DNA of 43,312 nucleotides from the NCBI RefSeq assembly GCF_017315945.1, contig NZ_JAFLWI010000020.1, forward strand, positions 1-43,312, read 5' to 3'. This DNA comes from Candidatus Enterococcus courvalinii. Lineage in GTDB: Bacteria; Bacillota; Bacilli; Lactobacillales; Enterococcaceae. The notes below the pieces were generated by a model, which was given only the letters and a program-made list of their open reading frames with translations, did not search any database and had not been told where the DNA came from. Below are positions 22,070 to 37,769 of the stretch, piece after piece (positions within the stretch are counted from its first letter, which is position 1; the number at the start of each line of letters is the position of its first letter). The position numbers and the translations under genes are program-made.

Positions 22070-22098
22070 TTCAATCTTGTTTTTGAAAGCGCTATAAT
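22070..22098 (+). promoter_or_regulatory. promoter of the importer operon with overlapping cre-like box
   Basis: TTCAAT (22070-22075), 17 nt, TATAAT (22093-22098). TTGAAAGCGCTATAAT (22083-22098) fits the CcpA cre consensus WTGNAANCGNWNNCWW except at the C near its 3' end. It covers the -10, so bound CcpA would block polymerase. Confidence 0.65.
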
Positions 22099-22130: not shown

Positions 22131-23078
22131 ATGAAAAAAAGAAAGGGGTTAAAACATTTTTTTTCAATGGCTTGGCGTTTTAAAGCCTTGATTTTAATGG
22201 CTGTTCCTGGGATGTTGTGGATGATTTTCTTCTTCTATATTCCGGTGTTAGCAAACGTGGTTGCCTTTAAAAATTTCCATATCTCTGCAGATGGATTTTT
22301 GGCGAGTTTGAGAGAGAGCCCGTGGGTTGGTTGGGAGAACTTCAAATTTTTATTTTCTTCAGATCAAGCATTTTTAATTACTAAGAACACGATTTTGTAT
22401 AATGTAGGATTCATTACACTAAACTTGCTGATTTCGGTTGTTTTTGCCATTATCATGAGTGAATTAAGAAATAAAAAGTTAGTAAAAGTGTATCAAACAA
22501 TGTCATTACTACCTTATTTCTTATCTTGGGTTATCATCAGTTACTTTGTTTATGCGTTTTTGAGCCCGGATAAAGGGATTTTCAACCAATGGCTTTTAGG
22601 TCATGGAAGAGAAGCAATAAATTGGTACAATGAACCGAAATATTGGCCATTTATTCTATTGTTCATTGGGACGTGGAAAGGAATCGGCTATAATAGTATC
22701 ATTTACTTTGCTTCAGTAATGGGAATCGACCCAACTTACTATGAAGCAGCTATGGTTGATGGCGCAAGCAAATGGCAACAAATCAAACATGTGACGATTC
22801 CTCAATTAGTACCGTTGATGTCGATTTTAACGATTTTAGCTGTTGGAAATATCTTCCGAGCTGATTTCGGATTGTTCTATAATATTCCAAGAAATTCAGG
22901 CGCACTGTATGATGTAACTCAAGTTTTAGATACGTATATCTTTAATGGTTTGACTTCTACAGGTGACTTTGGAATGACTGCAGCAGCTGGGTTGTATCAG
23001 TCAGTTGTAGGATTTGTTTTGTTAATGACTACGAATGCGATCGCACGTCGTTTCGACAGCGAATCAGCATTGTTTTAG
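22131..23078 (+). CDS. ABC sugar importer permease, LplB type
   Basis: 315-residue membrane permease of the carbohydrate uptake family 1 (MalF/LplB group) with about six helices. The EAA loop that docks the ATPase reads EAAMVDGASKWQQIKHVTIP in the second half. It is the first gene of the operon, with GAAAGGAG before the ATG. It forms a heterodimer with the following permease. The pair plus the downstream lipoprotein match importers such as pneumococcal NgtS-P1-P2, which take up complex mannose-containing glycans. No ATPase gene is present in the cluster. Substrate specificity is inferred from the neighbouring mannosidase genes. Confidence 0.92.
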   Translation: MKKRKGLKHFFSMAWRFKALILMAVPGMLWMIFFFYIPVLANVVAFKNFHISADGFLASLRESPWVGWENFKFLFSSDQAFLITKNTILYNVGFITLNLLISVVFAIIMSELRNKKLVKVYQTMSLLPYFLSWVIISYFVYAFLSPDKGIFNQWLLGHGREAINWYNEPKYWPFILLFIGTWKGIGYNSIIYFASVMGIDPTYYEAAMVDGASKWQQIKHVTIPQLVPLMSILTILAVGNIFRADFGLFYNIPRNSGALYDVTQVLDTYIFNGLTSTGDFGMTAAAGLYQSVVGFVLLMTTNAIARRFDSESALF

Positions 23079-23090
23079 GAGGAGGATTCG

Positions 23091-24011
23091 ATGAAAAAGA
23101 AAAAAGTAGAGCAGGTTCAAGTGCGAGCTTTCAGCAAACCAATGAATCTCTTTTCTAATTTATTGATCGCGGTTTTTGCCTTCTCCTGTATCTTGCCGTT
23201 CCTATTTGTTATCGCCATTTCTTTGACAGATGAAACAGCGCTAGCAACTAATGGCTATAGTTTCTGGCCAGAAAAATTTAGTACATTTGGTTATACGTAT
23301 CTATTTGGACAAATGCAAGAAAAAATTTTCCAAGCATTATTTGTAACAGTTTTAGTGACGGTTTTAGGAACTTTGATCAATAGCACAGCCACTTCGCTGT
23401 ATGCCTATGCAATCTCTCGTTCTAATTTTCCATTCCGTCGTTTCTTTACCGTTTTTTGTTTAATCACGATGTTGTTTTCACCAGGGATGGTGGCAAACTA
23501 TTTAGTGATGACCAATTTACTTCAATTAAAAGATACGATTTGGGCATTGATTTTACCAATGGCAGTTAGCCCATTTAACATTATCGTGATGCGAACTTTC
23601 TTTAAACGTTCAGTTTCAGATTCGATTATAGAATCTGCTCGAATCGATGGCGCAAGTGAGTTACGAATTTTTATTCAAATCGTATTACCTTTAGCTGTTC
23701 CCGGGATTGCGACAATTAGCTTATTTGCCGCATTAGGTTACTGGAATGATTGGTTTAACGCATTACTTTACATTCAAAATGATAACTTAGTTCCATTACA
23801 ATACTTATTGATGAAAATTCAAAGTAATATCCAATATCTAACACAAAATGCGGGGGCTGGAAGTCAGCTTGCCGGAGGCTTAGCAGCCGTACCGGGAGAG
23901 TCAGCACGGATGGCAATCGTTGTTATCTCAACATTGCCAATTGCGATTAGCTACCCATTTTTCCAAAAACATTTTGTCAAAGGTCTCACTATTGGTGGAG
24001 TCAAGGAATAA
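23091..24011 (+). CDS. ABC sugar importer permease, LplC/YtcP type
   Basis: 306-residue MalG-type permease with six predicted helices. The EAA motif is ESARIDGASELRIFIQIVLP, and the C-terminus ends in FFQKHFVKGLTIGGVKE, as in the LplC/YtcP group. It begins 12 nt after the first permease, with AGGAGGA ahead of the ATG, and is followed after 32 nt by the binding protein gene. It completes the membrane channel of the importer. Confidence 0.92.
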   Translation: MKKKKVEQVQVRAFSKPMNLFSNLLIAVFAFSCILPFLFVIAISLTDETALATNGYSFWPEKFSTFGYTYLFGQMQEKIFQALFVTVLVTVLGTLINSTATSLYAYAISRSNFPFRRFFTVFCLITMLFSPGMVANYLVMTNLLQLKDTIWALILPMAVSPFNIIVMRTFFKRSVSDSIIESARIDGASELRIFIQIVLPLAVPGIATISLFAALGYWNDWFNALLYIQNDNLVPLQYLLMKIQSNIQYLTQNAGAGSQLAGGLAAVPGESARMAIVVISTLPIAISYPFFQKHFVKGLTIGGVKE

Positions 24012-24043
24012 ATAATAAATTATTTTATTTAGGAGGAAGTAAG

Positions 24044-25501
24044 ATGAAGTTATGGAAGAAACTAGCCTTTACAGGAGTTTCAGCGTTGATGGTTGGTACG
24101 TTAGCTGCTTGTGGTGGAGGATCAAGTGCAAGTAGTAATTCAGAAGGATCTGACAGCAAAACGTTGCAGATGTATCAAATTGGTGATAAACCAGACAATT
24201 ATGATGCCTTGATGGAAGTTGCGAATAAACGAATCGAAGACAAAATCGGCGTGAAAGTCAATATCAACTATATTGGTTTTGGGGATTACGAGAAAAAAAT
24301 GAACGTCATCATTTCTTCTGGTGAAAACTATGATATCGCTTATGCAAACAACTATGTTTCTAACGCTCAAAAAGGTGCTTTTGCCGACCTAACTGAGTTA
24401 GCGCCTAAATATGCCAAAGATGCTTATGATGCGTTAGATGAAGCTTACATCAAAGGAAACTTAGTCAATGATAAATTATATGCCCTTCCAGTAAATGGAA
24501 ATGTTTTTGCTCAACAAGTGTTAACTTTTAATAAACCACTACTAGATAAATACAACCTTTCAATTGATGGTATTGAATCTTATGCAGATGCCGAAAAAGT
24601 GTTACAAGAATTCCACAAAAAAGAACCAAATACGGCTGCTTTTGCCATTGGTCAAGGTTTCAAAGTTCAAGGTGACTTTGATTATCCTTTAGGAAATACC
24701 CTACCATTTGCGATTGACTTAAATGGAGACAAAACAAAGATCATCAATCAATATGACAACAAAACTTATGTTGATTTACTTCGTACAATGCACAGTTGGT
24801 ACCAACAAGGATTGATTCCAAGTGATGCGGCAACAAGTAGCAAAGATTATCCTTTAGAAGGAAACACTTGGTTACTACGTGGCGAAACACAAGGACCTTT
24901 CGATTATGGTGACACAATTTTAAGTAATGCAGCCAACCAAGAATTAGTTTCTAAATCAATCACTGTTCCTTTGAAATCAACAGGACAAGCACAAATGGCA
25001 AACTTCGTTGTTTCAAATACTTCAAAAAATAAAGAAAAAGCTGTTGAATTTTTAGGCTTACTTAACAGCGATGCTGAATTATTGAATGGATTAGTTTGGG
25101 GAATTGAAGGCGAGGCTTGGGAAAAAGTAGATGGAACAGACGACAAGATCAAATTGTTAGATGGCTATCAACCAAAAACTCATATGTCTGCTTGGAACAC
25201 AGGAAATAACGCAATCTTATACACACAAGAATCGATTACTGATGAAATGATCGCTACACGCGACAAATCAATTGAAGAAGCTGAAACTTCACCAATCTTA
25301 GGTTTCAGCTTTAATACAGACAGTGTTAAAACAGAAATCAGTAATATCTCAAACGTTATGAATCAGTATATGGATGGATTAAATACCGGAACGGTTGATC
25401 CAGACGAAACATTGCCTAAATTGCTCGAGGCATTAGATAAAGCTGGTTATGAAAAAGTGTTAACTGAGATGCAAAAACAATACGATGAATTTCGAAAATA
25501 A
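24044..25501 (+). CDS. ABC importer substrate-binding lipoprotein, LplA type
   Basis: 485-residue extracellular solute-binding protein anchored by lipid. The signal peptide ends in the lipobox LAAC with Cys23 as the modified residue, followed by a Gly/Ser-rich tether. The mature part is a COG1653-type sugar-binding fold with a C-terminal extension seen in LplA-like oligosaccharide binders. AGGAGG precedes the ATG. It is translated from the same transcript as the permeases, and a strong hairpin after the stop could keep this mRNA segment stable and more abundant. Proposed ligand, from context only: mannose-rich N-glycan fragments or mannooligosaccharides. Confidence 0.9.
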   Translation: MKLWKKLAFTGVSALMVGTLAACGGGSSASSNSEGSDSKTLQMYQIGDKPDNYDALMEVANKRIEDKIGVKVNINYIGFGDYEKKMNVIISSGENYDIAYANNYVSNAQKGAFADLTELAPKYAKDAYDALDEAYIKGNLVNDKLYALPVNGNVFAQQVLTFNKPLLDKYNLSIDGIESYADAEKVLQEFHKKEPNTAAFAIGQGFKVQGDFDYPLGNTLPFAIDLNGDKTKIINQYDNKTYVDLLRTMHSWYQQGLIPSDAATSSKDYPLEGNTWLLRGETQGPFDYGDTILSNAANQELVSKSITVPLKSTGQAQMANFVVSNTSKNKEKAVEFLGLLNSDAELLNGLVWGIEGEAWEKVDGTDDKIKLLDGYQPKTHMSAWNTGNNAILYTQESITDEMIATRDKSIEEAETSPILGFSFNTDSVKTEISNISNVMNQYMDGLNTGTVDPDETLPKLLEALDKAGYEKVLTEMQKQYDEFRK

Positions 25502-25510
25502 ATAAGTCTG

Positions 25511-25550
25511 ACAGCGAGCGGTTCCATCTGCTCGCTGTTCTTTATATAAT
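25511..25550 (+). promoter_or_regulatory. hairpin after the binding protein gene, possible attenuator, with a TATAAT
   Basis: ACAGCGAGC (25511-25519) and GCTCGCTGT (25530-25538) form a GC-rich stem extended by two inner pairs, followed by TTCTTTATAT. It may partly terminate or protect the upstream mRNA. TATAAT at 25545-25550 could be a weak secondary -10 for the two-component genes. Confidence 0.55.
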
Positions 25551-25586
25551 AAGAGAGAAAAGATTATGTTTTGAAAAGGAGATATT

Positions 25587-26201
25587 ATGTTAGGAAAAGC
25601 TTTGGAGACATTGTTCATTCGCGTGTGGGTCGTAGTTAAACTAACACTTTTTTTCTGGTTGTTTAGTTTAGCCGGAGGAATTATTTTAGGGATTGGACCA
25701 GCGTTGAAAACAATCAATGAATTATTTTATCATTATGAGTTTGAGTACAAAGACATCACACTCAAGCAAGGTTGGTACTGTTTCAAGAAATATTTTAAGC
25801 GAGGAAATTATTTGTTTTTCTTCTTTTTCGCAGGATTAGCTATTTTAAGTTATAATCTTTACCTTTCCGTTCAAATACAGGGACTCTTATTTTTGGGAAT
25901 TGATTTTATTTTGTTATTTGGATTACTTTATTTGTTTGCAACGTATCAATGGAGTTTGATTTTAGATAGTGAATATGAAATGACATTCGGCAATGTGATC
26001 AAGTTAAGTTTTATTTCAAGTTTATCAAGTTTTTCTACGTTGTTGAAGATGATTATTGGCAGTGGTGTTATCCTTGCGTTGACGTGGCATTTCAAAGGTC
26101 TATTGTTATTTGGTTTACTGGGTTTATTGACTGTATGGAATGTGTTGGCAACAAAAAAATGGCGCGAAGAATTAGCAATCCGAATGGAAAACTATGAATA
26201 A
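25587..26201 (+). CDS. DUF624 (YesL-family) membrane protein
   Basis: 204-residue membrane protein with four to five hydrophobic helices, typical of DUF624/YesL. These genes sit beside LplABC importers and YesMN two-component systems in many Firmicutes, as here. Their role is unknown; an accessory part in sensing or transport is assumed. AAAGGAG precedes the ATG. The stop overlaps the kinase start by eight bases, so translation is coupled to that gene. Confidence 0.82.
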   Translation: MLGKALETLFIRVWVVVKLTLFFWLFSLAGGIILGIGPALKTINELFYHYEFEYKDITLKQGWYCFKKYFKRGNYLFFFFFAGLAILSYNLYLSVQIQGLLFLGIDFILLFGLLYLFATYQWSLILDSEYEMTFGNVIKLSFISSLSSFSTLLKMIIGSGVILALTWHFKGLLLFGLLGLLTVWNVLATKKWREELAIRMENYE

Positions 26202-27936
26202 TCCATTCAAAGTTTTATTTTCAAAAGGAACGCTACTCAACCGCTTGTTACGTAAGTACGCAGTAGTAATGACTGTACTCACAATCGGTGCAACAATTAT
26301 TTTTAGTATCCATACTTGGAGTCAAAATAAAAATCAAGCAGAAAATGTTACCAATGAAGCACTGCAAACGACAAATCGAATGTTAAATGACAAAACAACA
26401 TTAAGCAAAATTATCAAAGATCAACTTCTTGGAAGCCCAGAAAAAATCGAAAATGCGACAACCTATCTGACTCAACCAATTGACCAGTATTTAATGTATG
26501 CGTACACGCAACAAAGCAAAACGAATGAATTATTATCTTTCCCCAATGAGATGTTAGATCTTTACGTCAACTATGAAGAGATAAGTTCTCTTTACATTGT
26601 TTTTAGTCAATTGCCAGAGTATTTTGAATCTACCAGAGATCATAAGGCTGGTATTGTCAAAACGGGAACACCGACACTAAAAAATGCTTTTTATATCAAA
26701 ATGCCGATTACTCAAGGTGGCACGGAGTTAGGAAGCATCTTTGTTGGGTTCCAAAAGAAAGAGCTAGAATCCAGTTTAGAAAGTTTGAATGCTTTTAACG
26801 GCCTGTCTTTATATATGATTTCTGGCTCTGCTAATCGCCTGTATACTTTTCATAGCGCAGGGCTTGCACCAGAAAGTCGAAAAAAACAAGAAGCGCTGAT
26901 TACACAAGAATTGGATAAGAATTCTGGACTACCTTTGTCGAATTTGGAAGAACATAATTTTGTTTCCTATCAGGAATTATCAGGTGAATACCGTATACTA
27001 GCAACGTTAGATCAACAAAATGTGTATCGAGAAACGGCAAGAAGCCTGGCTCCATTAATTATTGGTGTGATCCTTTTAGTTAGTATTCTATTAGTCTTCT
27101 TATACAAAACATTTAAGCGTTATTCTCAGCAAATCGACGTAGTGATGCGTGCAATGAATGAAGCGGCAAATGGTAATCTAGACACACGAATCGCCCAGGA
27201 ACAAACGGAGTACGAGCTGAAAGATCTAGCACAAGGTATCAATACAATGTTGGATAGTATCAACCAATATGTTGAAGATATCTATAAATTAGAAATCAAA
27301 CAAAAAGATGCCCATATGCGCGCACTACAAGCACAAATCAACCCTCATTTTCTTTATAACACCTTGGAATACATTCGGATGTATGCGTTGAGCGAGGGAA
27401 GTGAAGAACTTGCAGAAGTGGTCTATGCTTTTTCTGCATTATTAAGAAATAACACGAATCAAGAAACGAAAATCAGCCTTAAAGAAGAACTGAATTTTTG
27501 TGAAAAGTATGTATTTCTTTACCAAATGCGTTATCCTAATCGTGTAGCCTATCATTTTTCGATTGAGGAATCACTAGAACAAATTGAGGTACCAAAATTT
27601 GTGATTCAACCATTAGTTGAAAACTATTTTAAACATGGCATTGATTTTACTCGTTATGACAACGCGTTGAGTGTAAAAGTTTTTCAACAAGGATCGTTTG
27701 TACAAATTCAAGTGAAAGATAACGGTAAAGGAGTTACTCCAGAGCGATTAGTGGCAATTGAAAATCGATTGGTACACCCAAAGGTTGAGCTGCATGAGTC
27801 AATTGGTTTGCAAAATGTAAATGAACGTTTACGCGCTAATTTCGGGAGTACTTACCGGATGCGCTTATTTGCAAACGAAGAAGGTGGCTTGACGATCAAA
27901 ATTACATTTAAGAAGAAGGAGTCTGAAAATGTATAA
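26194..27936 (+). CDS. YesM-type sensor histidine kinase
   Basis: 580-residue membrane kinase. TM1 lies at about 18-38, an extracellular sensor region spans 39-284, and TM2 is at about 285-305. A HAMP segment follows, then a His_kinase (PF06580) domain with phosphoacceptor His385 in QINPHFLYNTLEY. The ATPase has the N box VENYFKHG, the G1 box DNGKGV and the G2 box GLQNVNERL. It overlaps both neighbours by eight nt (ATGAATAA upstream, ATGTATAA downstream). By analogy with YesMN/TCS07 it should sense the imported glycan or its binding protein and phosphorylate the next gene product. Confidence 0.93.
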   Translation: MNNPFKVLFSKGTLLNRLLRKYAVVMTVLTIGATIIFSIHTWSQNKNQAENVTNEALQTTNRMLNDKTTLSKIIKDQLLGSPEKIENATTYLTQPIDQYLMYAYTQQSKTNELLSFPNEMLDLYVNYEEISSLYIVFSQLPEYFESTRDHKAGIVKTGTPTLKNAFYIKMPITQGGTELGSIFVGFQKKELESSLESLNAFNGLSLYMISGSANRLYTFHSAGLAPESRKKQEALITQELDKNSGLPLSNLEEHNFVSYQELSGEYRILATLDQQNVYRETARSLAPLIIGVILLVSILLVFLYKTFKRYSQQIDVVMRAMNEAANGNLDTRIAQEQTEYELKDLAQGINTMLDSINQYVEDIYKLEIKQKDAHMRALQAQINPHFLYNTLEYIRMYALSEGSEELAEVVYAFSALLRNNTNQETKISLKEELNFCEKYVFLYQMRYPNRVAYHFSIEESLEQIEVPKFVIQPLVENYFKHGIDFTRYDNALSVKVFQQGSFVQIQVKDNGKGVTPERLVAIENRLVHPKVELHESIGLQNVNERLRANFGSTYRMRLFANEEGGLTIKITFKKKESENV

Positions 27937-29353
27937 AGTGTTGCTGGTTGATGATGAATACATGATTTTGAATGGATTGAAAAAAATTGTTGATTGGTCC
28001 AGTTTTGGATTTGAAATCGTAGCAACGGCAGAAAATGCGATGGAAGGGTTATTAGTTTTAGAAAAAAAAGGCATTGATTTAGTTATTACAGATGTAACTA
28101 TGCCAGAAATGAATGGTTTAGAGTTTATTGAAGCAGCTCAAAAGGAGCAATACGCTTTTGAATTCATGATTCTTTCTGGCTACCAAGAATTTGAATACCT
28201 TAAAGGCGGTATGCAACTTGGGGCAGTTAATTATCTGATGAAACCTGTAAATAAAATCGAGTTGATTGAAAGCTTAAAGAAAGTCAAGGAACGGTTAGAT
28301 CAGCAAAACGAACAGAAAAACCAACAAGAAATTTACCAAGAACTTTTATTTAGTCAATGGTTGAATGAAGAACTAGATGAAACTAGCGAAGAAGAATTTT
28401 TGAATGGATTACCTCAAGGAACACAACAAATTTTACTGATTCAGCTAGAAAGAATCTATGAATCTGCTATTATTCAATGGTTAAAGGAGCACCAAGTAAC
28501 TACTTATTATCAACGAAGTTTTGGGAATCTGACTTGCTTTACCATCTTGCTTAGTCCTCAGAAAGGCAACGATTTTTGTCACTATTTTCAAATGAAGTAT
28601 CCAAAGCAAGATTGGTTGATTAGCATGGGTGATGAAATAGGAGAAGTGGATGATATTCCCGAAAGCTTTCGTCGAGCAAAAGACCAGTTACAGCTTCAAC
28701 AGTTTTACGGTGAAACTAGACATGAGATCATTCGGTCGATTCCAGCAGAGAATCAAGATCAGTTAATTGATTTTTCAACGTTTAGTCGTGCACTTCAAAG
28801 TAATCAGTTGGATTTAGTTCAACAAATGATTCGCGAGTTTTTTGAACAATTCCAGTCAGCAGTCATGACTCCCGAGGACATTCGACATTTTACTTTCTTA
28901 TTATTTATGGATATTCAACGAGAGCTGATTACACTAGAAGATGATGAATACTTAAAAGGCATTCAACAAATTAATCAGGCGAAAAACGTAAATGATCTTC
29001 AAGAATTGTTGCTCTCCTTAATTCGTAAGCAACAAAAGCAAAAAAACTATAGTGAAAATATCAAACAAGTGCTACAAATCTTGCACGAAAATTACCGAGA
29101 ACCATTAACGTTAAAAGAAGTGTCTGAAAGTTTACACCTAAACGTGATGTATCTTGGACAACTGTTTAAAAAAGAAACGAAAAAAAGCTTTTCTACCTAT
29201 TTGAATCATTTGCGAATGGAGCAAGCAAAATGGTTGCTTCTGCACAGTGAACAAAATATCAATGAAATTTCAAACGAGATTGGCTACAACAATACCACTT
29301 ACTTCTCTAAATTATTCAAGAAAATTGTGGGGCAATCGCCAAAGGAGTACTGA
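27929..29353 (+). CDS. YesN-type response regulator with AraC DNA-binding domain
   Basis: 474-residue regulator. The N-terminal receiver domain has the acidic pair Asp8-Asp9, phosphorylation site Asp55 (ITDVTMPEMNG), a Ser in ILSGYQEF and Lys105. A long central linker follows, and a C-terminal pair of AraC helix-turn-helix motifs begins near residue 372 (LKEVSESLHLNVMYLGQLFKKE; GYNNTTYFSKLFKK). Its start overlaps the kinase stop. It probably activates the importer operon, and the direct repeat at 22035-22068 is the obvious candidate site. The operon ends at a bidirectional terminator. Confidence 0.93.
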   Translation: MYKVLLVDDEYMILNGLKKIVDWSSFGFEIVATAENAMEGLLVLEKKGIDLVITDVTMPEMNGLEFIEAAQKEQYAFEFMILSGYQEFEYLKGGMQLGAVNYLMKPVNKIELIESLKKVKERLDQQNEQKNQQEIYQELLFSQWLNEELDETSEEEFLNGLPQGTQQILLIQLERIYESAIIQWLKEHQVTTYYQRSFGNLTCFTILLSPQKGNDFCHYFQMKYPKQDWLISMGDEIGEVDDIPESFRRAKDQLQLQQFYGETRHEIIRSIPAENQDQLIDFSTFSRALQSNQLDLVQQMIREFFEQFQSAVMTPEDIRHFTFLLFMDIQRELITLEDDEYLKGIQQINQAKNVNDLQELLLSLIRKQQKQKNYSENIKQVLQILHENYREPLTLKEVSESLHLNVMYLGQLFKKETKKSFSTYLNHLRMEQAKWLLLHSEQNINEISNEIGYNNTTYFSKLFKKIVGQSPKEY

Positions 29354-29479
29354 GAAAAACCACTTACGTAGAATAGTTTAAAGAAAAAAGTAGGGAGAAC
29401 AGTGCTTAGATGCAGATACTTTTGTTTAGGTTGGAATTTCTGCTTCTGAAATGTTAGTGACCAAGCAAAAAAGATAATC

Positions 29480-29527
29480 AAAAAGACTGGACCTAAGCGA
29501 AAATACGCTTTGGTTCAGTCTTTTTTT
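29480..29527. terminator. bidirectional terminator between response regulator and GH92 genes
   Basis: AAAAAGACTG-A-CC and GGTTCAGTCTTTTT arms with inner AAGCG/CGCTT, with A and T runs on either side. The rest of the 227-nt gap holds nothing else recognisable. Confidence 0.88.
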
Positions 29528-29580
29528 ATGAAAATAAAAATCAAATTTTATTTTTGCACGTAGTTAATTGTGAAGGCTCA

Positions 29581-31722
29581 TTAGGTTAAAGAAAACGGTA
29601 AAGCATCTGCCGTGTATTTTTTGGGATGAGGAACAGTACCTAAGTGATAACGAATTGTTCCACCTGTGAGTAAGTCTTCGTGTGTAAAGAATAACTTAGA
29701 ATAGCTTTGTTCATTACGATCAATTTGATGAACAAACTGTTGTTGCGGTCGATTTGGCGAACTTTCAATCGTAAGTGTCTGACCGTTTGAGAGTTTTAGT
29801 TGAACTTGATCGAATAATGGCAGACCAATAACATATTCTCCTGAACCAGGCGTGACTGGATAAAATCCTAAACTACTAAAGATATACCAACCCGACATGC
29901 TACCATTGTCTTCATCGCCGGGATACCCTGTTGGTGAGTCATTAAATGTTTGAGTAAGTAATTGTTTAATTAATGGCTGAGCCATCTCTGGTTTGCCAAG
30001 ATAACTGAATAAATAAGGGTAATGGAAGCTAGGCTGATTTGAGATAGCTAGTTGTCCAAATTCAATCGCAGCCATTTCACTCATTTCATGGATTTCAAAA
30101 CCGTATCCACCAACTTCAAAGGAAGGAGACTGGTTACAAAGCTCGATTAATTTTTCTTGAAAAACGGCTTCTCCGCCATGTTCACGAATCAAGCCATTAA
30201 AATCTTGGTAGACGGCGAAGCTGCTTTGCCATGCACTACCTTCTGCATAATCTTGGCCCCAGCGAGTCGCTAGGAAATTTTCTCTGAATTCTTGATTAGT
30301 ATCTTTTGCACGCATGAATCCGACAGTAGAATCAAAAATATTGCGATAGTTCAAGGACTGTCTTTGATAAAAAGCACTGGTTTCTTCATCGCCTAATATA
30401 GCGGCTACTTGACTGATACAAAAATCACTATAAGCATAATCTAAAGTATGATTGACTGATTCATGGTAGGTACTAGGAACATAGCCGTATGTTAAATAAT
30501 CAAGTGTTCCTTGACGTCCGTAATTAGGCAGTTCGCTTTGAACAGTAGCACTTTTTTTCATTGCCGTTAAAAATTCAGACATCAAGTCAGTACGAATTCC
30601 TTTGACAGCAGCGTCAGCAATTACTGCATCAATCAATGTTCCAGGCATTAAGCCACGTTCATCAGGTGATAGCCATTTTGGCAAAAAGCCAGTTTCTCGA
30701 TAACTTGTAAGGAATCCCTCAAGCATTTCCTCATATTTTTCAGTGGCTATCAATGAATAAAGTGGATAAACTGTTTTATACGTATCCCAAAATCCATTAT
30801 TGGTATAGAGAACACCAGGGCGAACAGTTTTGCTGAAGGTATCATAGTGAATTTTTTTCCCATCATTAGTTACTTCATAGAATGTTTGAGGAAAGAGAAA
30901 TACGCGATACAAGTTATGATAAAAAGTACTTACTTGTTGTTTATCATGATGGTTGATTTTGATTTTATCGAAATATTCTTGCCAAATTTGGCGATTTTTT
31001 TCCAGATATTCCGCAGGTGACTGCGCAGACTCTCTCGATAAATTCACTTGTGCTTGCGCTTCACTAATAAAAGAAGTACCAAAGCGAATCGTTTGCTGTT
31101 TGATTGAACCAAACGGCAGTAAAATAGAAGAATCATTCTCTGGAATTATTAACTCAGTGTCAACTAATGGTTTTTCAAAGGAAAGAATAAAATAAAAGCG
31201 AAAATCAGGATCTTCACATCCAGAAAAGTTGATAAAAGAACCCGTGATTGTATGCGAATCTACAATGTTTAACTGATATCGTTCAGGAAAAGTCAAAAGT
31301 AAACCGCTATCATTTTTCTGGTAGTTAATAGTAAGTACTCCGCCATACATACTAGGAATCAACGTGGATGAAATAGCATATCGTAGTTGATTGATTGACA
31401 GATGTGTAGGACAAAATGTACTTTCTTCTGGTCGATAAGAACTCTGTGCATGAAAAAGACTGTTTTCAGGTAAAGTACCACTAACAGGTGTCATTAGGAA
31501 ATGACTGAAATCACCCATCCAAGGACTTGGTTGATGTGTTAAACGATACCCTTGAAAGACACGGTCTTCTGGGTGGAACCACCAACTTCCCTTTTGATCA
31601 GTTGTTTGTGGGGCAAAATAATTCATTCCAAACGGAACGCCTGTGTAAGGCAGGCAATTCCCGTTTGAATAGTTGGACTGGTTAGCAGTTCCGTGGCGAG
31701 TATCAATTTGTTGAATGTTCAT
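29581..31722 (-). CDS. GH92 alpha-mannosidase
   Basis: 713-residue calcium-dependent inverting exo-mannosidase of family GH92, mostly alpha-1,2-specific. N-terminal TRHGTANQSNYSNGN opens the beta-sandwich. EGSAWQSSFAVYQDFNGLI and PGDEDNGSMSGW (601-612) are family hallmarks and carry active-site acidic residues. There is no signal peptide, so it acts in the cytoplasm on imported glycans, as does pneumococcal SpGH92. Its start is set by AAAGGAG and overlaps the end of the regulator gene by 20 nt, so the two form one operon. It would trim the alpha-1,2 mannoses that cap high-mannose N-glycans before GH38 and GH125 act. Confidence 0.92.
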   Translation of the reverse strand: MNIQQIDTRHGTANQSNYSNGNCLPYTGVPFGMNYFAPQTTDQKGSWWFHPEDRVFQGYRLTHQPSPWMGDFSHFLMTPVSGTLPENSLFHAQSSYRPEESTFCPTHLSINQLRYAISSTLIPSMYGGVLTINYQKNDSGLLLTFPERYQLNIVDSHTITGSFINFSGCEDPDFRFYFILSFEKPLVDTELIIPENDSSILLPFGSIKQQTIRFGTSFISEAQAQVNLSRESAQSPAEYLEKNRQIWQEYFDKIKINHHDKQQVSTFYHNLYRVFLFPQTFYEVTNDGKKIHYDTFSKTVRPGVLYTNNGFWDTYKTVYPLYSLIATEKYEEMLEGFLTSYRETGFLPKWLSPDERGLMPGTLIDAVIADAAVKGIRTDLMSEFLTAMKKSATVQSELPNYGRQGTLDYLTYGYVPSTYHESVNHTLDYAYSDFCISQVAAILGDEETSAFYQRQSLNYRNIFDSTVGFMRAKDTNQEFRENFLATRWGQDYAEGSAWQSSFAVYQDFNGLIREHGGEAVFQEKLIELCNQSPSFEVGGYGFEIHEMSEMAAIEFGQLAISNQPSFHYPYLFSYLGKPEMAQPLIKQLLTQTFNDSPTGYPGDEDNGSMSGWYIFSSLGFYPVTPGSGEYVIGLPLFDQVQLKLSNGQTLTIESSPNRPQQQFVHQIDRNEQSYSKLFFTHEDLLTGGTIRYHLGTVPHPKKYTADALPFSLT

Positions 31723-32770
31723 TGTTAAGCTCCTTTGTTGAGTGTCTTGTTATTAATGTAACTGGGTATTTGGTATCTGTTGGCGTTTCTTTGGTTTCAA
31801 GCCAATGAATCAACTTTTCTCCAGCTGATTTTCCAAGTTCTTTAAAATTTTGGGCGATAGTTGTCAAAGGTGGATCAACTAAAGATGCAGCTTGAATATC
31901 ATCGAAACCAATAATCGAAAAGTCGGCAGGAACTGAAAATCCAGCCTGTTTTAGTTGGTTCATTGTTTGAATGGCAACAAGATCGTTTTCGCAGACAAAC
32001 GCAGTAAGCTGGTGTTCTTGAATATAGTTTAATAACTCTTTATTCGTGGCTTTTTGGTCGTCAAGCGCAGTATGGAAAGCTAAATTAGCTTTATCAAGAG
32101 CTTCAAGATAGCCTAAGTAGCGTTGACGCACAGATTGTGGATGAGTTGGCTCACCAAATAAGAAACCAATTTTTTGATGACCATCAGCAATCAATTGATT
32201 TGTGGCTAGCGATCCACCTGCAAAGTTGTCCGAAAGAACGGTTGGAAATGGCAGTTCATAAATTTTCTTATCCAAAATAACGACAGGAAATTCTTTCAGC
32301 GAAAGTTCAAATAATAAATCTAAGTGTTGCTCAGTATCAATAGCGTAGTAAATCAATCCATCGAATTCATCCATCACTTCTTGCGCCGTTTTTGTTTGGA
32401 GAAAATCAAGAGAAGTCATTAATACTTCAAATTGATTCTCTTGCATGATTGGATTCAATCCTTCAGTGAAATCACCGACAGACAAATCAGTTAAGAAAGG
32501 GAATAAAAATAGAATTCGCTTTGTTTTTTGAATAGAGACAGTCAATGTCTCTGGTTTGTCCGCTTTGACAAAGCTGCCTTTTCCACGAATCCGATAAATC
32601 AAACCAAGTTGCTCCAATTCTGTTAATGCCCGTTTGGACGTGATTCGACTTACTTGATATTTTTGAGAAAGTTCTTTTTCAGTAGGAACTTGGCTGTCAA
32701 TGGCTAACGTTCCATCAAGGATTGCATTGTGTAGATCAATAAATATTTTCTTATATAATGGTTGCTCCAT
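31703..32770 (-). CDS. GntR-type regulator with LacI-like sugar-sensing domain (AraR-type architecture)
   Basis: 355-residue regulator. A winged helix of the GntR family lies at residues 1-70 (PTEKELSQKYQVSRITSKRALTE; IYRIRGKGSFV). A periplasmic-binding-protein-like effector domain of the LacI/GalR type follows, with IIGFDDIQAASLVDPPLTT. I start it at 32770, where AAGAGGTG precedes the ATG; an upstream extension would add 21 hydrophobic residues lacking a ribosome site. It is co-transcribed with GH92 and divergent from GH125-GH38-ROK. Two GATATATC palindromes flank the two promoters, so it likely represses both units until a mannose-derived sugar binds. Confidence 0.9.
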   Translation of the reverse strand: MEQPLYKKIFIDLHNAILDGTLAIDSQVPTEKELSQKYQVSRITSKRALTELEQLGLIYRIRGKGSFVKADKPETLTVSIQKTKRILFLFPFLTDLSVGDFTEGLNPIMQENQFEVLMTSLDFLQTKTAQEVMDEFDGLIYYAIDTEQHLDLLFELSLKEFPVVILDKKIYELPFPTVLSDNFAGGSLATNQLIADGHQKIGFLFGEPTHPQSVRQRYLGYLEALDKANLAFHTALDDQKATNKELLNYIQEHQLTAFVCENDLVAIQTMNQLKQAGFSVPADFSIIGFDDIQAASLVDPPLTTIAQNFKELGKSAGEKLIHWLETKETPTDTKYPVTLITRHSTKELNNEHSTN

Positions 32771-32784
32771 AATAACACCTCTTA

Positions 32785-32796
32785 ATGATATATCAT
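32785..32796. promoter_or_regulatory. operator-like palindrome 1 (regulator side)
   Basis: ATGATATATCAT is a perfect 12-nt palindrome between the regulator start codon and its probable -10 (TATTAT on the minus strand near 32804-32809). It shares the GATATATC core with the site at 32890. This position suits autorepression. Confidence 0.55.
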
Positions 32797-32844
32797 GTAT
32801 AAATAATAGCATAAATAGAGTAAAAGTAAACAATAAAAAATATT

Positions 32845-32860
32845 ATGAAAGCGTAGACAA
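32845..32860 (+). promoter_or_regulatory. consensus cre box (CcpA site)
   Basis: ATGAAAGCGTAGACAA fits WTGNAANCGNWNNCWW at every position. It overlaps the -35 of the GH125 promoter, so CcpA would repress the mannosidase operon when preferred sugars are present. It also lies upstream of the divergent regulator promoter. Confidence 0.8.
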
Positions 32861-32882
32861 AAGACGAGCCAAGAAGTATAAT
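32854..32882 (+). promoter_or_regulatory. promoter of the GH125-GH38-ROK operon
   Basis: TAGACA (32854-32859), 17 nt, TATAAT (32877-32882); close to the vegetative consensus. Confidence 0.75.
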
Positions 32883-32889
32883 CTACTAA

Positions 32890-32897
32890 GATATATC
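32890..32897. promoter_or_regulatory. operator-like palindrome 2 (GH125 side)
   Basis: GATATATC within AAGATATATCAA starts eight nt after the -10, at the expected transcription start. It repeats the core of the palindrome at 32785-32796. A repressor bound here would block initiation. Confidence 0.55.
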
Positions 32898-32914
32898 AAA
32901 TAGAAAAGAGGATA

Positions 32915-34210
32915 TTGAAGATGCCATATAAAGATATACCAAAATCAGTTAAAGAATTCATGGGGAAAATTGAACAGAAATGTGGAAGTGAGCATGCAGA
33001 TTGGGCTAAAAATTTTTCTACTGCCTTTGCTAATACATTGTTAACCACAGTAAAACGACATTCTGATGGAACAACTTTCTTGTTAACCGGTGATATACCA
33101 GCTATGTGGTTAAGAGACTCCGCTGCACAAGTACGTCCTTACTTAGTGATTGCCAAAGAAGATAAAGACTTGGCAGCAATGATCAGTGGATTGGTAAAAA
33201 AACAATTCTTTTATATCAATATTGATCCGTATGCAAATGCGTTCAACGAAGAAGCAAACGGGGCAGGACATCAGAGTGACCATACCGAAATGAATGATTG
33301 GATCTGGGAAAGAAAATATGAAATTGACTCATTATGTTACCCTGTTCAACTTGCCTATCTTTTATATAAAAATACAGGACAAATAGATCAATTTGACGAC
33401 TCATTTGTTTCAGGAATCAAAAAAATTCTAAACGTTTTTCAAACAGAACAAGACCATACTAAATCACCTTATCAATTCGAACGTGATACTACTCGTCTGG
33501 AAGACACGCTTGTTAATGGTGGGAAAGGTACAAAAGTGGTGCCTACAGGAATGACTTGGTCAGGTTTTCGGCCAAGTGATGACGCTTGTCGATATGGGTA
33601 TCTAGTCCCATCGAACATGTTTGCAGTAGTTGTTTTAGGATATATTGAAGAAATTTTTCGAACAGTGTTATCAAATAATCAAATCGTAGCAAAAGCCACC
33701 GCGTTAAGAGAAGAGATCCAACAAGGGATTGAAGCGCACGGTAAAACTAAAAATCAAGCACAAGAAACTATTTTCGCATACGAAGTAGATGGTCAAGGAA
33801 ATTCATCAATAATGGATGACAGCAATGTACCGAACTTAATGGCTGCACCTTATCTAGGCTACTGTTCTTCTGAAGATGAAACATATTTACAAACAAGAAA
33901 AACTTTGCTGAGCTCAGAAAATCCTTACTTTTATGAAGGAAAGTATGCGAAAGGTATCGGTTCTTCTCATACACCTGAAAATTATGTTTGGCCAATTGCT
34001 TTAGCAATGGAAGGTATGACTACTAACAATCGAAAAGAGAAAGAACGAATTTTAGATTTGTTAGTAACTACAGATGCTGGAACAAACTTGATGCACGAAG
34101 GTTTTGATGTAGATAATCCTAACAATTACACAAGAGAATGGTTTTCTTGGGCAAATATGATGTTTTGTGAATTAGTAATGGATTACTTTGATATTCGAGT
34201 AGAAAAATAG
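32915..34210 (+). CDS. GH125 exo-alpha-1,6-mannosidase
   Basis: 431-residue cytoplasmic glycosidase of family GH125 (inverting alpha-1,6-mannosidase, as in pneumococcal SpGH125). The family stretch AMWLRDSAAQVRPY is near residue 66, GMTWSGFRPSDDAC follows mid-protein, and TPENYVWPIAL and NYTREWFSWANMMF close the (alpha/alpha)6 barrel. There is no signal peptide. The ATG at 32915 stands first, since no stop intervenes; the second Met (32921) is equally placed behind AGAGGATA. It is the first gene of the operon driven by the promoter at 32854. GH38 starts 10 nt after the stop. Confidence 0.92.
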   Translation: MKMPYKDIPKSVKEFMGKIEQKCGSEHADWAKNFSTAFANTLLTTVKRHSDGTTFLLTGDIPAMWLRDSAAQVRPYLVIAKEDKDLAAMISGLVKKQFFYINIDPYANAFNEEANGAGHQSDHTEMNDWIWERKYEIDSLCYPVQLAYLLYKNTGQIDQFDDSFVSGIKKILNVFQTEQDHTKSPYQFERDTTRLEDTLVNGGKGTKVVPTGMTWSGFRPSDDACRYGYLVPSNMFAVVVLGYIEEIFRTVLSNNQIVAKATALREEIQQGIEAHGKTKNQAQETIFAYEVDGQGNSSIMDDSNVPNLMAAPYLGYCSSEDETYLQTRKTLLSSENPYFYEGKYAKGIGSSHTPENYVWPIALAMEGMTTNNRKEKERILDLLVTTDAGTNLMHEGFDVDNPNNYTREWFSWANMMFCELVMDYFDIRVEK

Positions 34211-34220
34211 GAGTGATTAG

Positions 34221-36905
34221 ATGAAAAAGAAAGTATATATTATTTCCCACAGTCATTGGGATCGAGAATGGTACATGGCTTATGAACAACATCATATGCG
34301 TTTAGTTGAATTAATGGATGATTTGTTAGAACTTTTTGAGAATGACCCTGAATTCAATAGTTTTCACTTAGATGGTCAAACAATTATTTTAGATGACTAT
34401 TTGCAAGTAAGACCGGAGAAAAGAGCATTAGTTCAACAAGCAATTGATGCGGGTAAGCTACGCATTGGACCATTTTATATTTTGCAAGATGACTTTTTGA
34501 TTAGCTCAGAATCCAACGTGCGTAATATGTTGATTGGCATGGAAGAAACACAAAAATGGGGTGTACCAGTAATGCTTGGCTACTTCCCAGATACATTTGG
34601 AAATATGGGTCAAACTCCTCAAATGATGAAGCAAGTTGGAATTGAAGCAGCAGCATTTGGTCGAGGAGTAAAACCGATAGGCTTTGATAATCAAGTGCTT
34701 GAAGCAGAAAATTATTCCTCCCAATATTCTGAAATGAAATGGAAAGGTCCTGATAGCTCTGAAATTTTCGGCTTATTATTTGCGAATTGGTATAGTAATG
34801 GGAATGAAATACCAGTTGAAGAACAAGAAGCTAAGATATTTTGGGACCAAAAATTGGCTGATGCAGAGCAATATGCTTCAACCGAACATTTATTGATGAT
34901 GAATGGTGTTGATCATCAACCTGTTCAAAAAGATATATCAAAGGCAATTACGTTAGCCAATCGTTTGTATCCAGATTACGAATTCATTCATTCTAATTTT
35001 ACAGACTACTTAGCAGCAGTAACAAATGATTTACCTGAAGATTTGGGAACAGTAGAAGGTGAATTAACGAGTCAAGAAACAGATGGCTGGTATACCTTGG
35101 CAAATACTGCATCTGCACGTGTTTATTTAAAACAATGGAATACAAAAGTTCAAAGACAATTAGAAAATATTGCTGAACCATTAGCAACGATGGCATATGA
35201 AGTTTCGGGAAGTTATCCTCATGATCAATTAGATTATGCTTGGAAAACGTTAATGCAGAATCACCCACATGATAGCATTTGTGGTTGCTCAGTGGACTCT
35301 GTTCATCGAGAAATGATTACACGATTTGAAAAAGCAGATGAAGTTGGGAAATTTGTGGCAGAAGAAGCAATGAGACAATTAGCACAAGTTATCGATACAA
35401 GTGAATTCCCTGAAGATACGTATCCTTTTGTTGTGATCAATACAGCTGGAACAGCAAAAACGGGTGAAGCGGTTATTGAAATCGAACTGGAACGCAAAAA
35501 GTTTGCTGAAGGATTACCAGAAACGTTGTTTAAAGAGTTGGAAGATGCTCCTGCTAAGAGTTATCATGTTGAGAATGCGCAAGGAGAAATCATCCCTGCA
35601 ACTGTTTCTGAAGCAATTGTTCGTTTTGACTATGACTTGCCAAAAGATCGATTCCGGATACCTTATATGGAAAAAGTAGTGACTGTAACTATTCCGCTTG
35701 AAGAAATGGCTGCTTTTTCATGGGAGACATTTACGTTAGCTGAAGGAGAAGCACCGATTACTACTGATTCGATGGTCAGCGACCAAGGACGAGTAATCGA
35801 AAATGAATGGCTCAAAATCAAAATTGAAGAGAATGGTTCGTTAACAGTAATGGACAAAAAAATGGCTCGTCAATTTGAAAATATTCTTGTTTTTGAAGAT
35901 ACGGGTGACGTCGGAAATGAGTATATCTATAAACAACCAATTGATACAGTGCCAATTCTTTCGAACCAACAGGAGGACTCTCAAGTAGAAATCTTGGTTG
36001 ATACACCAGAGATCGCTCAAATCCAACTCACTCAGACGATGATGATTCCAGTTTCTGCCGACGAGCTTTTAGAAAGAGAACAACAAATGGTAGTTGAATT
36101 TCGTTACCGTAAAGCAAAACGAGCGAACGAATTAAAACCACTATTAATAGAAACAAAAATTACTTTAAGAAAAAATAGTCGGAAAATCGACTTTGAAACG
36201 ACGATTGATAATCAAATGAAAGATCATCGATTACGTGCGCTATTTCCAACGAAGTTACATGTGGAACACCATGAAGCAGATAGTATATTTGAAGTCGTTA
36301 CGCGTCCAAATAAAGTTTCTGCAGGCTGGGAGAATCCAACGAATCCGCAACATCAACACGCATTTGTTAATCTTCATGATAAAAATTATGGTGTCACAAT
36401 TGGAAACTACGGTTTGAATGAATACGAAATTGTAGAGGAAGGAAAAATTGCATTGACATTATTGCGCTGTGTTGGTGAGCTAGGGGACTGGGGATACTTC
36501 CCAACTCCTGAGGCACAGTGTTTAGGACAACAACACTTCCAATATAGTATGGAAATTCATGAACCAAATGAAAAGTTTGAATCTTATCAACATGCGTATG
36601 CTGCGCAAGTTCCGTTTACGACGCAACAATTAACTAATCAGCAAGGTGAATTAAGCAGCAAAAATAATTATTTGGAAGTAAATGCTAAAACGTTTGCAAT
36701 TACTGCTTTGAAGCGAAGCAAGTTTAATGATAAAGTAGTACTGAGAGGATTCAATCTGTCAGAAAAAGAAGAAGAAATCGTTGTTCAAAAAACAGGAACA
36801 ACTAGCAGATTGTTGAATCTTTTAGAAAAAGACAGTAAGCAAACGATTGAGCCGACATTGATGCCTTATGAAATTCGGACAATCGGATTCGAGGAGGAAA
36901 AGTAA
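34221..36905 (+). CDS. GH38 alpha-mannosidase
   Basis: 894-residue zinc-dependent retaining alpha-mannosidase of family GH38. The metal-binding start motif SHSHWDREW is at residues 9-17 (His12 and Asp14 as ligands). The probable nucleophile is Asp124 in GYFPDTFGNMGQ. A further His ligand lies in HPHDSICGCSVDSVHREM. A long beta-rich C-terminal region follows, ending in PYEIRTIGFEEE. The length is normal for bacterial MngB/SpGH38-type enzymes, which cut alpha-1,3 and related mannose linkages inside the cell. AGGAGTG precedes the ATG. The last codons hold the ribosome site of the next gene, whose ATG abuts the stop. Confidence 0.93.
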   Translation: MKKKVYIISHSHWDREWYMAYEQHHMRLVELMDDLLELFENDPEFNSFHLDGQTIILDDYLQVRPEKRALVQQAIDAGKLRIGPFYILQDDFLISSESNVRNMLIGMEETQKWGVPVMLGYFPDTFGNMGQTPQMMKQVGIEAAAFGRGVKPIGFDNQVLEAENYSSQYSEMKWKGPDSSEIFGLLFANWYSNGNEIPVEEQEAKIFWDQKLADAEQYASTEHLLMMNGVDHQPVQKDISKAITLANRLYPDYEFIHSNFTDYLAAVTNDLPEDLGTVEGELTSQETDGWYTLANTASARVYLKQWNTKVQRQLENIAEPLATMAYEVSGSYPHDQLDYAWKTLMQNHPHDSICGCSVDSVHREMITRFEKADEVGKFVAEEAMRQLAQVIDTSEFPEDTYPFVVINTAGTAKTGEAVIEIELERKKFAEGLPETLFKELEDAPAKSYHVENAQGEIIPATVSEAIVRFDYDLPKDRFRIPYMEKVVTVTIPLEEMAAFSWETFTLAEGEAPITTDSMVSDQGRVIENEWLKIKIEENGSLTVMDKKMARQFENILVFEDTGDVGNEYIYKQPIDTVPILSNQQEDSQVEILVDTPEIAQIQLTQTMMIPVSADELLEREQQMVVEFRYRKAKRANELKPLLIETKITLRKNSRKIDFETTIDNQMKDHRLRALFPTKLHVEHHEADSIFEVVTRPNKVSAGWENPTNPQHQHAFVNLHDKNYGVTIGNYGLNEYEIVEEGKIALTLLRCVGELGDWGYFPTPEAQCLGQQHFQYSMEIHEPNEKFESYQHAYAAQVPFTTQQLTNQQGELSSKNNYLEVNAKTFAITALKRSKFNDKVVLRGFNLSEKEEEIVVQKTGTTSRLLNLLEKDSKQTIEPTLMPYEIRTIGFEEEK

Positions 36906-37769
36906 ATGTACGGCGGAATAGAAGCGGGTGGCACAAAGTTTGTTTGTGCGGTGGCAAATGATCAACATAAAATTATGGAGAAAGTAAGTATTCCTACAAC
37001 AACTCCAATAGAAACGTTGCAACAAGTGTTTGCTTTTTTTGACAAGTTTGACTTATCTGCTATGGGGATTGGGTCATTTGGTCCGATTGGCATTGACCAA
37101 ACAAAAGATAATTATGGATATGTTTTAGCGACACCTAAAAAAGGTTGGGCTGATTTTGACTTTTTAGGGAGTGTTAAAGCACGTTATCAAATTCCAATTG
37201 CGTGGACAACAGATGTTAATGCTGCAGCCTATGGCGAATTAAAAAAAGGTGCAGCACAGGGAAAGGATAGCTGTATCTATCTAACTGTTGGTACCGGGAT
37301 TGGTGCAGGTGTCGTCTTGAATCAAGACATTTTTTCAGGGATAGCTCATCCGGAGATGGGACATATTTGGGTGAAACGTCATCCAGATGACACGTACGCT
37401 GGCACTTGTCCTTATCATGGAGATTGTTTGGAAGGTTTGGCGGCAGGACCTTCATTAGAAGCAAGAACAGGAATCAAAGGTCAAGATTTACCGGTAGACC
37501 ATCCTGTGTGGGATATCCAAGCATTTTATATTGCACAAGCTTTAATCAACTACACATTAACTTTAGCGCCAGAAAAAATTATCCTTGGTGGCGGCGTAAT
37601 GAATCAAGATCATTTACTGCAAAAAATTCGTCAACAATTTGTCGAATTAATGGCAGGATACATGGAAGTTCCGGAAGCTAGCGAATATATTGTTCGTTGG
37701 GGCTTGCCGAATGAAAGTGGGATTATTGGTAGTTTGTTATTGGCAGAAAAAGAGCATCGACAAAAATAG
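36906..37769 (+). CDS. ROK-family sugar kinase (fructokinase/mannokinase type)
   Basis: 287-residue sugar kinase. The phosphate motif GGIEAGGTKFVCAV is at the N-terminus, TDVNAAAYGE carries the catalytic Asp region, and GTGIGAGVV binds substrate. A zinc motif with GHIWVKRHPDD and GTCPYHGDCLEG is typical of the ScrK-like branch. The ATG directly follows the GH38 stop (TAAATG) with GAGGAGG inside GH38, so production is coupled. In this operon the natural substrate is probably free mannose released by the three mannosidases, giving mannose-6-phosphate. Fructose remains possible from family alone. Confidence 0.88.
   Translation: MYGGIEAGGTKFVCAVANDQHKIMEKVSIPTTTPIETLQQVFAFFDKFDLSAMGIGSFGPIGIDQTKDNYGYVLATPKKGWADFDFLGSVKARYQIPIAWTTDVNAAAYGELKKGAAQGKDSCIYLTVGTGIGAGVVLNQDIFSGIAHPEMGHIWVKRHPDDTYAGTCPYHGDCLEGLAAGPSLEARTGIKGQDLPVDHPVWDIQAFYIAQALINYTLTLAPEKIILGGGVMNQDHLLQKIRQQFVELMAGYMEVPEASEYIVRWGLPNESGIIGSLLLAEKEHRQK

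Follow-up and report, generated by a model that had tools for sequence, protein, structure and literature searches.

Both enterococci and streptococci use N-glycans of the host as a nutrient. We compared the described systems for their use with a locus of Candidatus Enterococcus courvalinii, carried on a 43,312-nucleotide stretch of contig NZ_JAFLWI010000020.1 (hereafter the window; contig 13 of the 29 contigs of a 2.62-Mb genome). The locus encodes an NgtS-P1-P2-like importer, a YesMN-type two-component system (TCS) with its response regulator (RR), a GntR/LacI-type regulator (REG), glycoside hydrolases of families 92, 125 and 38 (GH92, GH125 and GH38) and a ROK sugar kinase.

In Streptococcus pneumoniae, the NgtS-P1-P2/CPL/TCS07 system (PMC5215778, PMC7075642) has the same importer type, GH92, GH125, GH38, ROK kinase and YesMN-type TCS, together with a GH85 enzyme, and overexpression of its response regulator RR07 raises ngtP1-P2-S, endoD and the GH92, GH125, GH38 and ROK genes (PMC7075642). 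The RR07 binding site was reported as not found in 2020 (PMC7075642), and a candidate motif, [CTWWWWWWAG]-N39-60-TSS (TSS, transcription start site), was proposed in 2024 from endoD promoters (PMC11034029). The EF2223-EF2217 cluster of E. faecalis (PMC8262876, PMC12502629) corresponds in G015, an E. faecalis-like genome, to the order permease 1, permease 2, solute-binding protein (SBP), DUF624 protein, histidine kinase and RR next to GH92; in contrast to the window, REG|GH125-GH38 lies about 440 kb away in that genome, and published work ties EF2223-21 to glucose and NagY. The EndoSS cluster of S. suis (PMC7281376) likewise gathers an ABC transporter, GH20, ROK, GH38, GH125, GH92 and the endoglycosidase in one region, but it belongs to another genus, and EndoSS is LPXTG-anchored whereas the GH85 enzyme here is lipoprotein-like.

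The present locus differs from the pneumococcal one in that the REG gene shares the GH92 operon, that a GATATATC palindrome replaces a weak TCS-type repeat at the enzyme promoter, and that the block has no GH20 gene. On the basis of gene content, homology, synteny and two motifs with their positions, spacing and conservation, we conclude that this is quite probably an enterococcal N-glycan utilization locus with two tiers of control. It is a locus of a known kind, widespread in its lineage, and what appears to be new is its predicted wiring through two conserved motifs. No regulator or operator for enterococcal mannosidase genes was found in a literature search that reached few subscription papers, and the string "mannosid" did not occur in the accessible part of a paper on lactic-acid-bacteria regulons (PMC3616900).

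Two motifs at separate promoters

The importer promoter of the window carries a direct repeat with a 21-bp period, which we predict to be the RR site (Table 1), and its -10 box begins 36 bp downstream of the first base of the second TATAATTTGT half. We scored the repeat as two TATAATTTGT halves, with a maximum of 20, and worked with the best 80 of 175 GH92 relatives from a scan of our genome collection, kept as named loci. The importer set comprised 32 of these loci and the window, and 28 of its 33 promoters reached 16 of 20, compared with 0.7% of resampled controls; among Streptococcus ngtP1 promoters, 15 of 20 did so (controls 0.5%). A spacing of 21 was the best between 10 and 33 in both sets, the next best giving 6 of 33 and, at spacing 12, 12 of 20. 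Among promoters scoring at least 15, 30 of 31 importer promoters (L069 and L080 were dropped from this count) and all 20 from Streptococcus had a TAnnnT box exactly at +36, counted from where the second half begins. The streptococcal half-site CTATAATTAG fits the RR07 candidate CTWWWWWWAG (PMC11034029), but the motif described here has two half-sites 21 bp apart and a fixed 36-bp distance to the -10 box, and is conserved outside Streptococcus. Comparing enterococci with streptococci gives a sharper, position-fixed motif than the 10-base candidate, along with a predicted second regulator and its operator.

With up to three mismatches allowed, the repeat occurs twice in the genome, before the importer and, on contig 11, about 100 bases before the start of a gene for a GH85 endo-beta-N-acetylglucosaminidase whose N-terminus is lipobox-like and which also has an F5/8 domain; the second site has a TATCAT box at +36, and a reversed control gave none. 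This sharing of a promoter repeat bears on TCS activation of importer and endoglycosidase genes. Over both strands of the 80 loci and the window there were 63 sites scoring at least 16, of which 43 had the box: 28 at importers, 12 at GH85 genes, one at a Listeria SBP gene, one at GH92 in a Lactococcus hodotermopsidis locus without REG, and one unassigned (L110). The repeat was present at all 12 GH85 genes in the loci; one close species group accounts for 9 of these genes. One resample yielded 12 sites scoring at least 16, none with a box. Ten permuted half-sites were also run; ATTAATTTGT, which is close to the real half-site, gave 13 sites with a -10 box and the other nine gave 0–2.

The second motif, GATATATC, marks the region between REG and GH125. 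This region could be extracted from 59 of the 80 loci (21 gave none), and GATATATC was present in 55, with two or more copies in 46. The 101 copies in 11,030 bases of REG|GH125 intergenic DNA, against 65 in the other 1.67 Mb of the loci, amount to a 235-fold difference in density, and the next best of 64 palindromes of equal G+C content (GATATATC included) had 4 copies. By eye, some of the four intergenic regions lacking GATATATC contain near variants such as GATATACC. The window has two such sites in this region, which we predict to be REG operators (Table 1), and GATATATC was not found in its importer promoter.

The palindrome also followed REG-linked genes where the arrangement differed, which makes for a more independent test. 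When GH92 stood apart from REG, or REG lay off the stretch, a palindrome was found no more than 200 bases upstream of GH92 in five of six loci (L050, L089, L104, L108 and L111, the last with REG off the stretch, but not L112); it preceded GH92 in none of the four loci without a clear REG at GH92 (L075, L106, L113 and L082, which has a 26% match), L072 being cut off. Fifteen loci, 13 of them from Paenibacillus, have REG without a divergent GH125, and in 14 of these a palindrome lay within 700 bases upstream of REG. In G015, the two separated parts each have their own motif: the 19-kb stretch holding GH92, the TCS and the importer (L227) contains a single GATATATC, at 5996, 32 bases before the GH92 start, and in the REG|GH125-GH38 part (L228) two copies lie between REG and GH125 and another within the coding region of REG. 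The first-pass annotation had linked the local regulator to the first trimming step, a proposal that this conserved, operator-like palindrome strengthens. Elsewhere in the genome, CTGATATATCAG lies directly behind the promoter of a uxu-like operon (L121:6986, contig 6:11985), which resembles uxuB-uxuA-uxaC-MFS.

Because the two motifs lie at separate promoters, intake (by the TCS) and digestion (by REG) appear to be separately controlled. In the mechanism that we propose, the YesMN-type TCS would sense an outside signal, and its RR would bind the 21-bp-spaced repeat adjoining the -35 box and turn on both the NgtS-like importer operon, TCS genes included, and the surface lipoprotein GH85 encoded elsewhere. 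The endoglycosidase would release Man(n)GlcNAc, which the importer would take in with an ATPase encoded elsewhere. REG would occupy GATATATC just behind the -10 boxes of REG-GH92 and GH125-GH38-ROK, and would leave the DNA once its LacI-type domain has bound a sugar derived from the imported glycan. Inside the cell, GH92 would then remove alpha-1,2-, GH38 alpha-1,3- and GH125 alpha-1,6-linked mannose, the ROK kinase would phosphorylate a released hexose, and CcpA would act through the cre-like sites at both promoters. The DNA binding, inducers, enzyme specificities and substrate in this scheme are predicted from sequence. Since control would be split into capture and digestion, the model makes clear, opposite predictions for E. 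faecalis deletions.

In E. faecalis, EF2223-21, EF2219-18 and the endoglycosidase genes respond together (PMC8262876, PMC12502629). EF2223 has a cre site and is strongly raised in rpoN and ccpA mutants, and the endoglycosidase genes rise alongside it (PMC8262876). In G015, the published EF2223 cre string lies 38 bases before the permease start, matching the publication.

Comparison with streptococci and spread of the arrangement

The genomes treated here as Streptococcus share one genus label; the SBP of one of them, G127, matches pneumococcal NgtS with 948 bits (window SBP, 541). Two of the fetched stretches (L219 and L220) have the same importer-DUF624-TCS order as the window, where the YesM-type kinase and AraC-type RR follow DUF624 and the NgtS-type importer. 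The DNA-binding domain of the RR is better kept than the rest of the protein (58% against 43% in L064, and 42% against 26% in one Streptococcus). An exact repeat stood before ngtP1 in all eight Streptococcus genomes scanned.

The enzyme promoters differ. From 16 Streptococcus loci we obtained 13 GH92|GH125 gaps; GATATATC was absent from all 13, and no REG match was found in the fetched Streptococcus stretches. The best repeat in these gaps scored 13–16 of 20 (0.9% of controls reached 16), and TATACT lay exactly at +36 of the best or tied-best repeat in 11 of the 13 and one base nearer in the other two. In the enterococcal-type REG|GH125 gaps, the repeat was near background (2 of 59, or 3.4%, against a control of 0.9%). 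Wiring of the pneumococcal type, in which the GH92|GH125 promoter has a TCS repeat but no GntR/LacI gene beside it, is thus not what we found here, where REG is present and GATATATC prevails. The motifs at the gaps and the RR07 overexpression data suggest that the TCS controls the enzymes in streptococci, whereas REG does so here. We lean, with some reserve, toward a regulator swap, of either direction, that split one regulon into two. TCS07 is reported to control capture as well as digestion of N-glycans in streptococci; a GntR/LacI repressor acting at GATATATC would hold the digestion genes in enterococci and other Bacilli, and the TCS would hold the importer and the surface GH85. In this reading, the 21-bp repeat with its 36-bp distance to the -10 box would be recognized by TCS07-type regulators throughout their family, in Streptococcus as well as in Enterococcus, Listeria and Niallia.

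GH92 is present in all 15 genomes of the genus and in 69 of 105 of the family, and NgtS-type SBPs occur in 138 of 395 genomes of the order. The closest named relatives by GH92, among the matches listed, are Enterococcus sp. DIV0660C (97%) and E. thailandicus (94%). REG directly precedes GH92 in 69 of the 80 loci; REG-GH92 is divergent from GH125 and GH38 in 54, and from GH125-GH38 plus ROK in 35, and the whole set, with ROK and with the RR on the opposite strand behind GH92, is found in 18, counting loci cut by contig or flank ends as lacking. These counts make the REG-GH92/GH125-GH38 arrangement typical for the lineage. It had been presented as a feature of the present genome that sets it apart from the pneumococcal locus. 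In fact it is the usual form of the locus in Enterococcus and extends to other Bacilli, and the fetched Streptococcus stretches that carry both genes likewise have GH92 running divergently from GH125-GH38; the part of the difference that stands is the REG gene in the GH92 operon, which those stretches lack.

Substrate and competing explanations

Homology speaks for mannose-rich N-glycan oligosaccharides. The GH92 protein has full-length homology of the EfMan-I type, its best PDB matches (7fe1, 6dwo and 7fe2) being, as we take them, structures of E. faecalis EfMan-I, presumably the EF2217 product. The Glu replaced by Gln in 7fe2 is conserved, as are the GDEDNG and HEMSEM stretches; for the aligned residues E494, D603, D605 and H545-E546 we assume the same roles as in EfMan-I. 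The G015 enzyme aligns with 6dwo over all 709 residues, with one difference by eye. The closest structure to GH125 (520 bits with the Pfam model, curated cut-off 23.4) is 3qpf, which we take to be the pneumococcal enzyme, and GH38 carries the N, middle and C domains of its family. EfMan-I trims Man5-9GlcNAc2 on RNase B to Man5 (PMC10051842).

Residues 32–485 of the SBP match NgtS, which was solved with Man5GlcNAc and in which Trp386 stacks on the Man-GlcNAc core and Trp81 contacts the terminal alpha-1,6 mannose (PMC5215778). Every SBP compared (30 of enterococcal type and 7 streptococcal) has Trp in the Trp386 column (W384 in the window), and the Trp81 equivalent is Trp in 27 of the 30 and Phe in 3, namely the window (F79) and its two nearest relatives. 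By eye, the SBP has a lipobox and no secretion signal was seen at the N-termini of GH92, GH125, GH38 or ROK. Import and intracellular trimming of N-glycan oligosaccharides are well supported by these comparisons, and high-mannose N-glycans are the likely substrate. The first-pass annotation, which had proposed import of mannose-rich glycans and their trimming inside the cell, is borne out as far as the homology of GH92, GH125 and the SBP with its core-stacking Trp goes; an E. faecalis importer phenotype that concerns glucose does not fit it.

Several observations weigh against the two-tier model and the swap. In E. faecalis, an rpoN mutant grows less well on glucose once EF2223-21 is deleted, and EF2223-21 is described there as a glucose importer (PMC8262876); NagY, acting by antitermination, is reported to act on EF2223-21, EF2219-18 and the endoglycosidase genes (PMC12502629), so the TCS would not act alone. 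An electrophoretic mobility shift assay did not detect RR07 at the strH and gh125 promoters (PMC9603416), and the repeat in the Streptococcus GH92|GH125 gaps is weak, with 3 of 13 reaching 16 of 20. Eight further Streptococcus hits, with two mismatches, come near the reversed-pattern control of 4, and none of the six such loci inspected lies before a recognized RR07 target. In G330, a genome with the Streptococcus label, a REG-like match at 40% identity lies some 7 kb from the gene for an NgtS-like SBP, so the absence of REG may not extend to all streptococci. The GATATATC core is not unique to REG, since a palindrome with this core precedes the uxu-like operon. The importer counts are partly circular because the window and its relatives were where the repeat was initially recognized, and its half-site was chosen by eye from their importer promoters; the GH85, E. 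faecalis-like and Streptococcus sites are more independent evidence. REG and RR binding, and expression, are for this locus predicted by comparing sequences.

The glucose phenotype and the Phe at the Trp81 position would both fit an importer that mainly takes up glucose or hexoses in general outside the phosphotransferase system (PTS), with the mannosidases serving a separate purpose. We give this little credence: the SBP has NgtS as its nearest match and retains the Man-GlcNAc-stacking Trp, the importer promoter has its motif in common with GH85 endoglycosidases, and a single EF2223-21 deletion showed no growth defect on glucose (PMC8262876). The shared GH85 motif also argues against a fungal or plant mannoside (yeast mannan fragments or alpha-mannan) as the substrate in place of N-glycans, as do the families in the genome that cut the chitobiose core (GH85 and an EndoE-like GH18) and the lack of room in NgtS beyond one reducing-end GlcNAc (PMC5215778); such a substrate is quite unlikely, even though GH92 and GH125 occur in mannan-degrading loci too, according to a review, and many of the carriers belong to Paenibacillus and other Bacilli.

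On the side of control, one regulator might govern everything, the TCS also driving GH92, GH125 and GH38 or REG also controlling the importer. The breadth of the RR07 overexpression response in S. pneumoniae would agree with this, as would GATATATC upstream of the first permease gene in 4 of 33 regions (L052, L055, L073 and L077). We regard it as unlikely given the near-background repeat in REG|GH125 regions, the window importer promoter without GATATATC, and the two motifs at separate promoters in both the window and the E. faecalis-like genome. It is very unlikely that GATATATC is the site of another GntR protein, such as a hexuronate regulator, with REG binding elsewhere. A CTGATATATCAG palindrome does precede the uxuB-like gene here and in the two nearest relatives, with the GATATATC core in four more of 30 loci, but the flanks differ, with C and G two bases outside the uxu core and only A or T there in REG|GH125 sites. 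The palindrome moreover accompanies REG-linked genes in Enterococcus, Listeria, Vagococcus, Niallia and Paenibacillus, whereas the Streptococcus GH92|GH125 regions, in stretches without a REG match, lack it.

Gene boundaries and minor sites

We named the genes from their reading frames and a Pfam domain search. All the genes that had been named (importer, TCS, REG, GH92, GH125, GH38 and ROK) were found together as described (Table 1), and with best-domain E-values from 8.6e-9 (DUF624) to 4.4e-156 (GH125) the set is not due to chance. The block had also been called complete, which is too strong. No ATPase was found within it (no search for a shared ATPase elsewhere in the genome was made) and no endoglycosidase either, the GH85 and EndoE-like GH18 enzymes being encoded elsewhere; the block is not self-sufficient for N-glycan use. 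REG, described as fused into a minus-strand operon with GH92, does adjoin it on the same strand, but there is no fused protein: a gene fusion is ruled out by two reading frames with a 20-base overlap (31703–31722). REG joins an N-terminal GntR domain to a LacI-type effector domain, an architecture that we take to be that of the AraR-like GntR/LacI chimeric regulators. Its mechanically called TTG start at 32833 is too early, as a stop codon falls in the stretch in 5 of 9 close relatives; Met stands at the position of the corrected start in 9 of 9 compared. We rejected mannosylglycerate hydrolase as the identity of GH38 (NF007331, 500.8 bits, under half the curated cut-off of 1138).

Table 1. 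Coordinates of the features discussed, numbered within the window except for the last row.
Feature	Position	Strand	Basis
Predicted RR site, direct repeat CTATAGTTTGTTT-N8-CTATAATTTGTTT, 21-bp period	22035..22068	+	conserved motif
cre-like TTGAAAGCGCTATAA (22083-22097) overlapping importer -10 TATAAT (22093-22098)	22083..22098	+	EF2223 cre at like place in L227
ABC permease 1 (NgtP1-like)	22131..23078	+	Pfam BPD_transp_1 2e-13
ABC permease 2 (NgtP2-like)	23091..24011	+	Pfam BPD_transp_1 7.5e-14
Lipoprotein SBP, NgtS-like, DUF3502	24044..25501	+	5swa, E 2.6e-161
DUF624 (YesL-like) membrane protein	25587..26201	+	Pfam
YesM-type histidine kinase (His_kinase/HAMP)	26194..27936	+	Pfam
YesN-type RR, AraC-type DNA-binding domain	27929..29353	+	Pfam
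GH92 exo-alpha-mannosidase, predicted alpha-1,2	29581..31722	-	Pfam 2e-139; PDB 7fe1/6dwo/7fe2
GntR/LacI-type regulator (REG), start corrected to ATG 32770	31703..32770	-	PF00392 + PF13377
Predicted REG operator 1 TGATATATCA, REG-proximal	32786..32795	.	conserved palindrome
cre-like TGAAAGCGTAGACA overlapping GH125 -35 (TAGACA)	32846..32859	+	by eye, one mismatch to the cre consensus
GH125 -10 TATAAT	32877..32882	+	promoter reading
Predicted REG operator 2 AGATATATCA, 6 bases downstream of GH125 -10	32889..32898	.	conserved palindrome
GH125 exo-alpha-1,6-mannosidase, start corrected to ATG 32921	32921..34210	+	Pfam 4.4e-156; 3qpf, E 1.2e-171
GH38 alpha-mannosidase	34221..36905	+	five GH38-type Pfam domains; 3lvt, 2wyh
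ROK sugar kinase	36906..37769	+	1xc3/3lm9, E 2.2e-98, solved relative named fructokinase
G330 REG-like match and NgtS-like SBP	contig 4:223779-224807 and 215115-216542

A second alpha-mannosidase cluster lies on contig 27 (L116:2115-9520) and encodes a GntR-UTRA regulator, a PTS EIIC, GH38, GH125 and GH18; no direct repeat scoring at least 16 was found in L116. Its GH18 has a signal-peptide-like start and is closest to the EndoE GH18, 7puj (PMC8894350).

WWGATATATCWW occurs at six sites genome-wide, three of them in the locus: two in the promoter region and one inside the GH38 coding sequence (34930-34941). We rejected the last as an operator, given its place and that only some relatives share GATATATC there, and the match may be a chance product of the coding sequence. 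Of the four exact TGATATATCA sites genome-wide, two were also set aside, as they fall within longer palindromes near unrelated genes. The long palindrome around TTGAAATTTGATATATCAAATTTCAA adjoins small helix-turn-helix-like genes (L123:6901, contig 29:108900).

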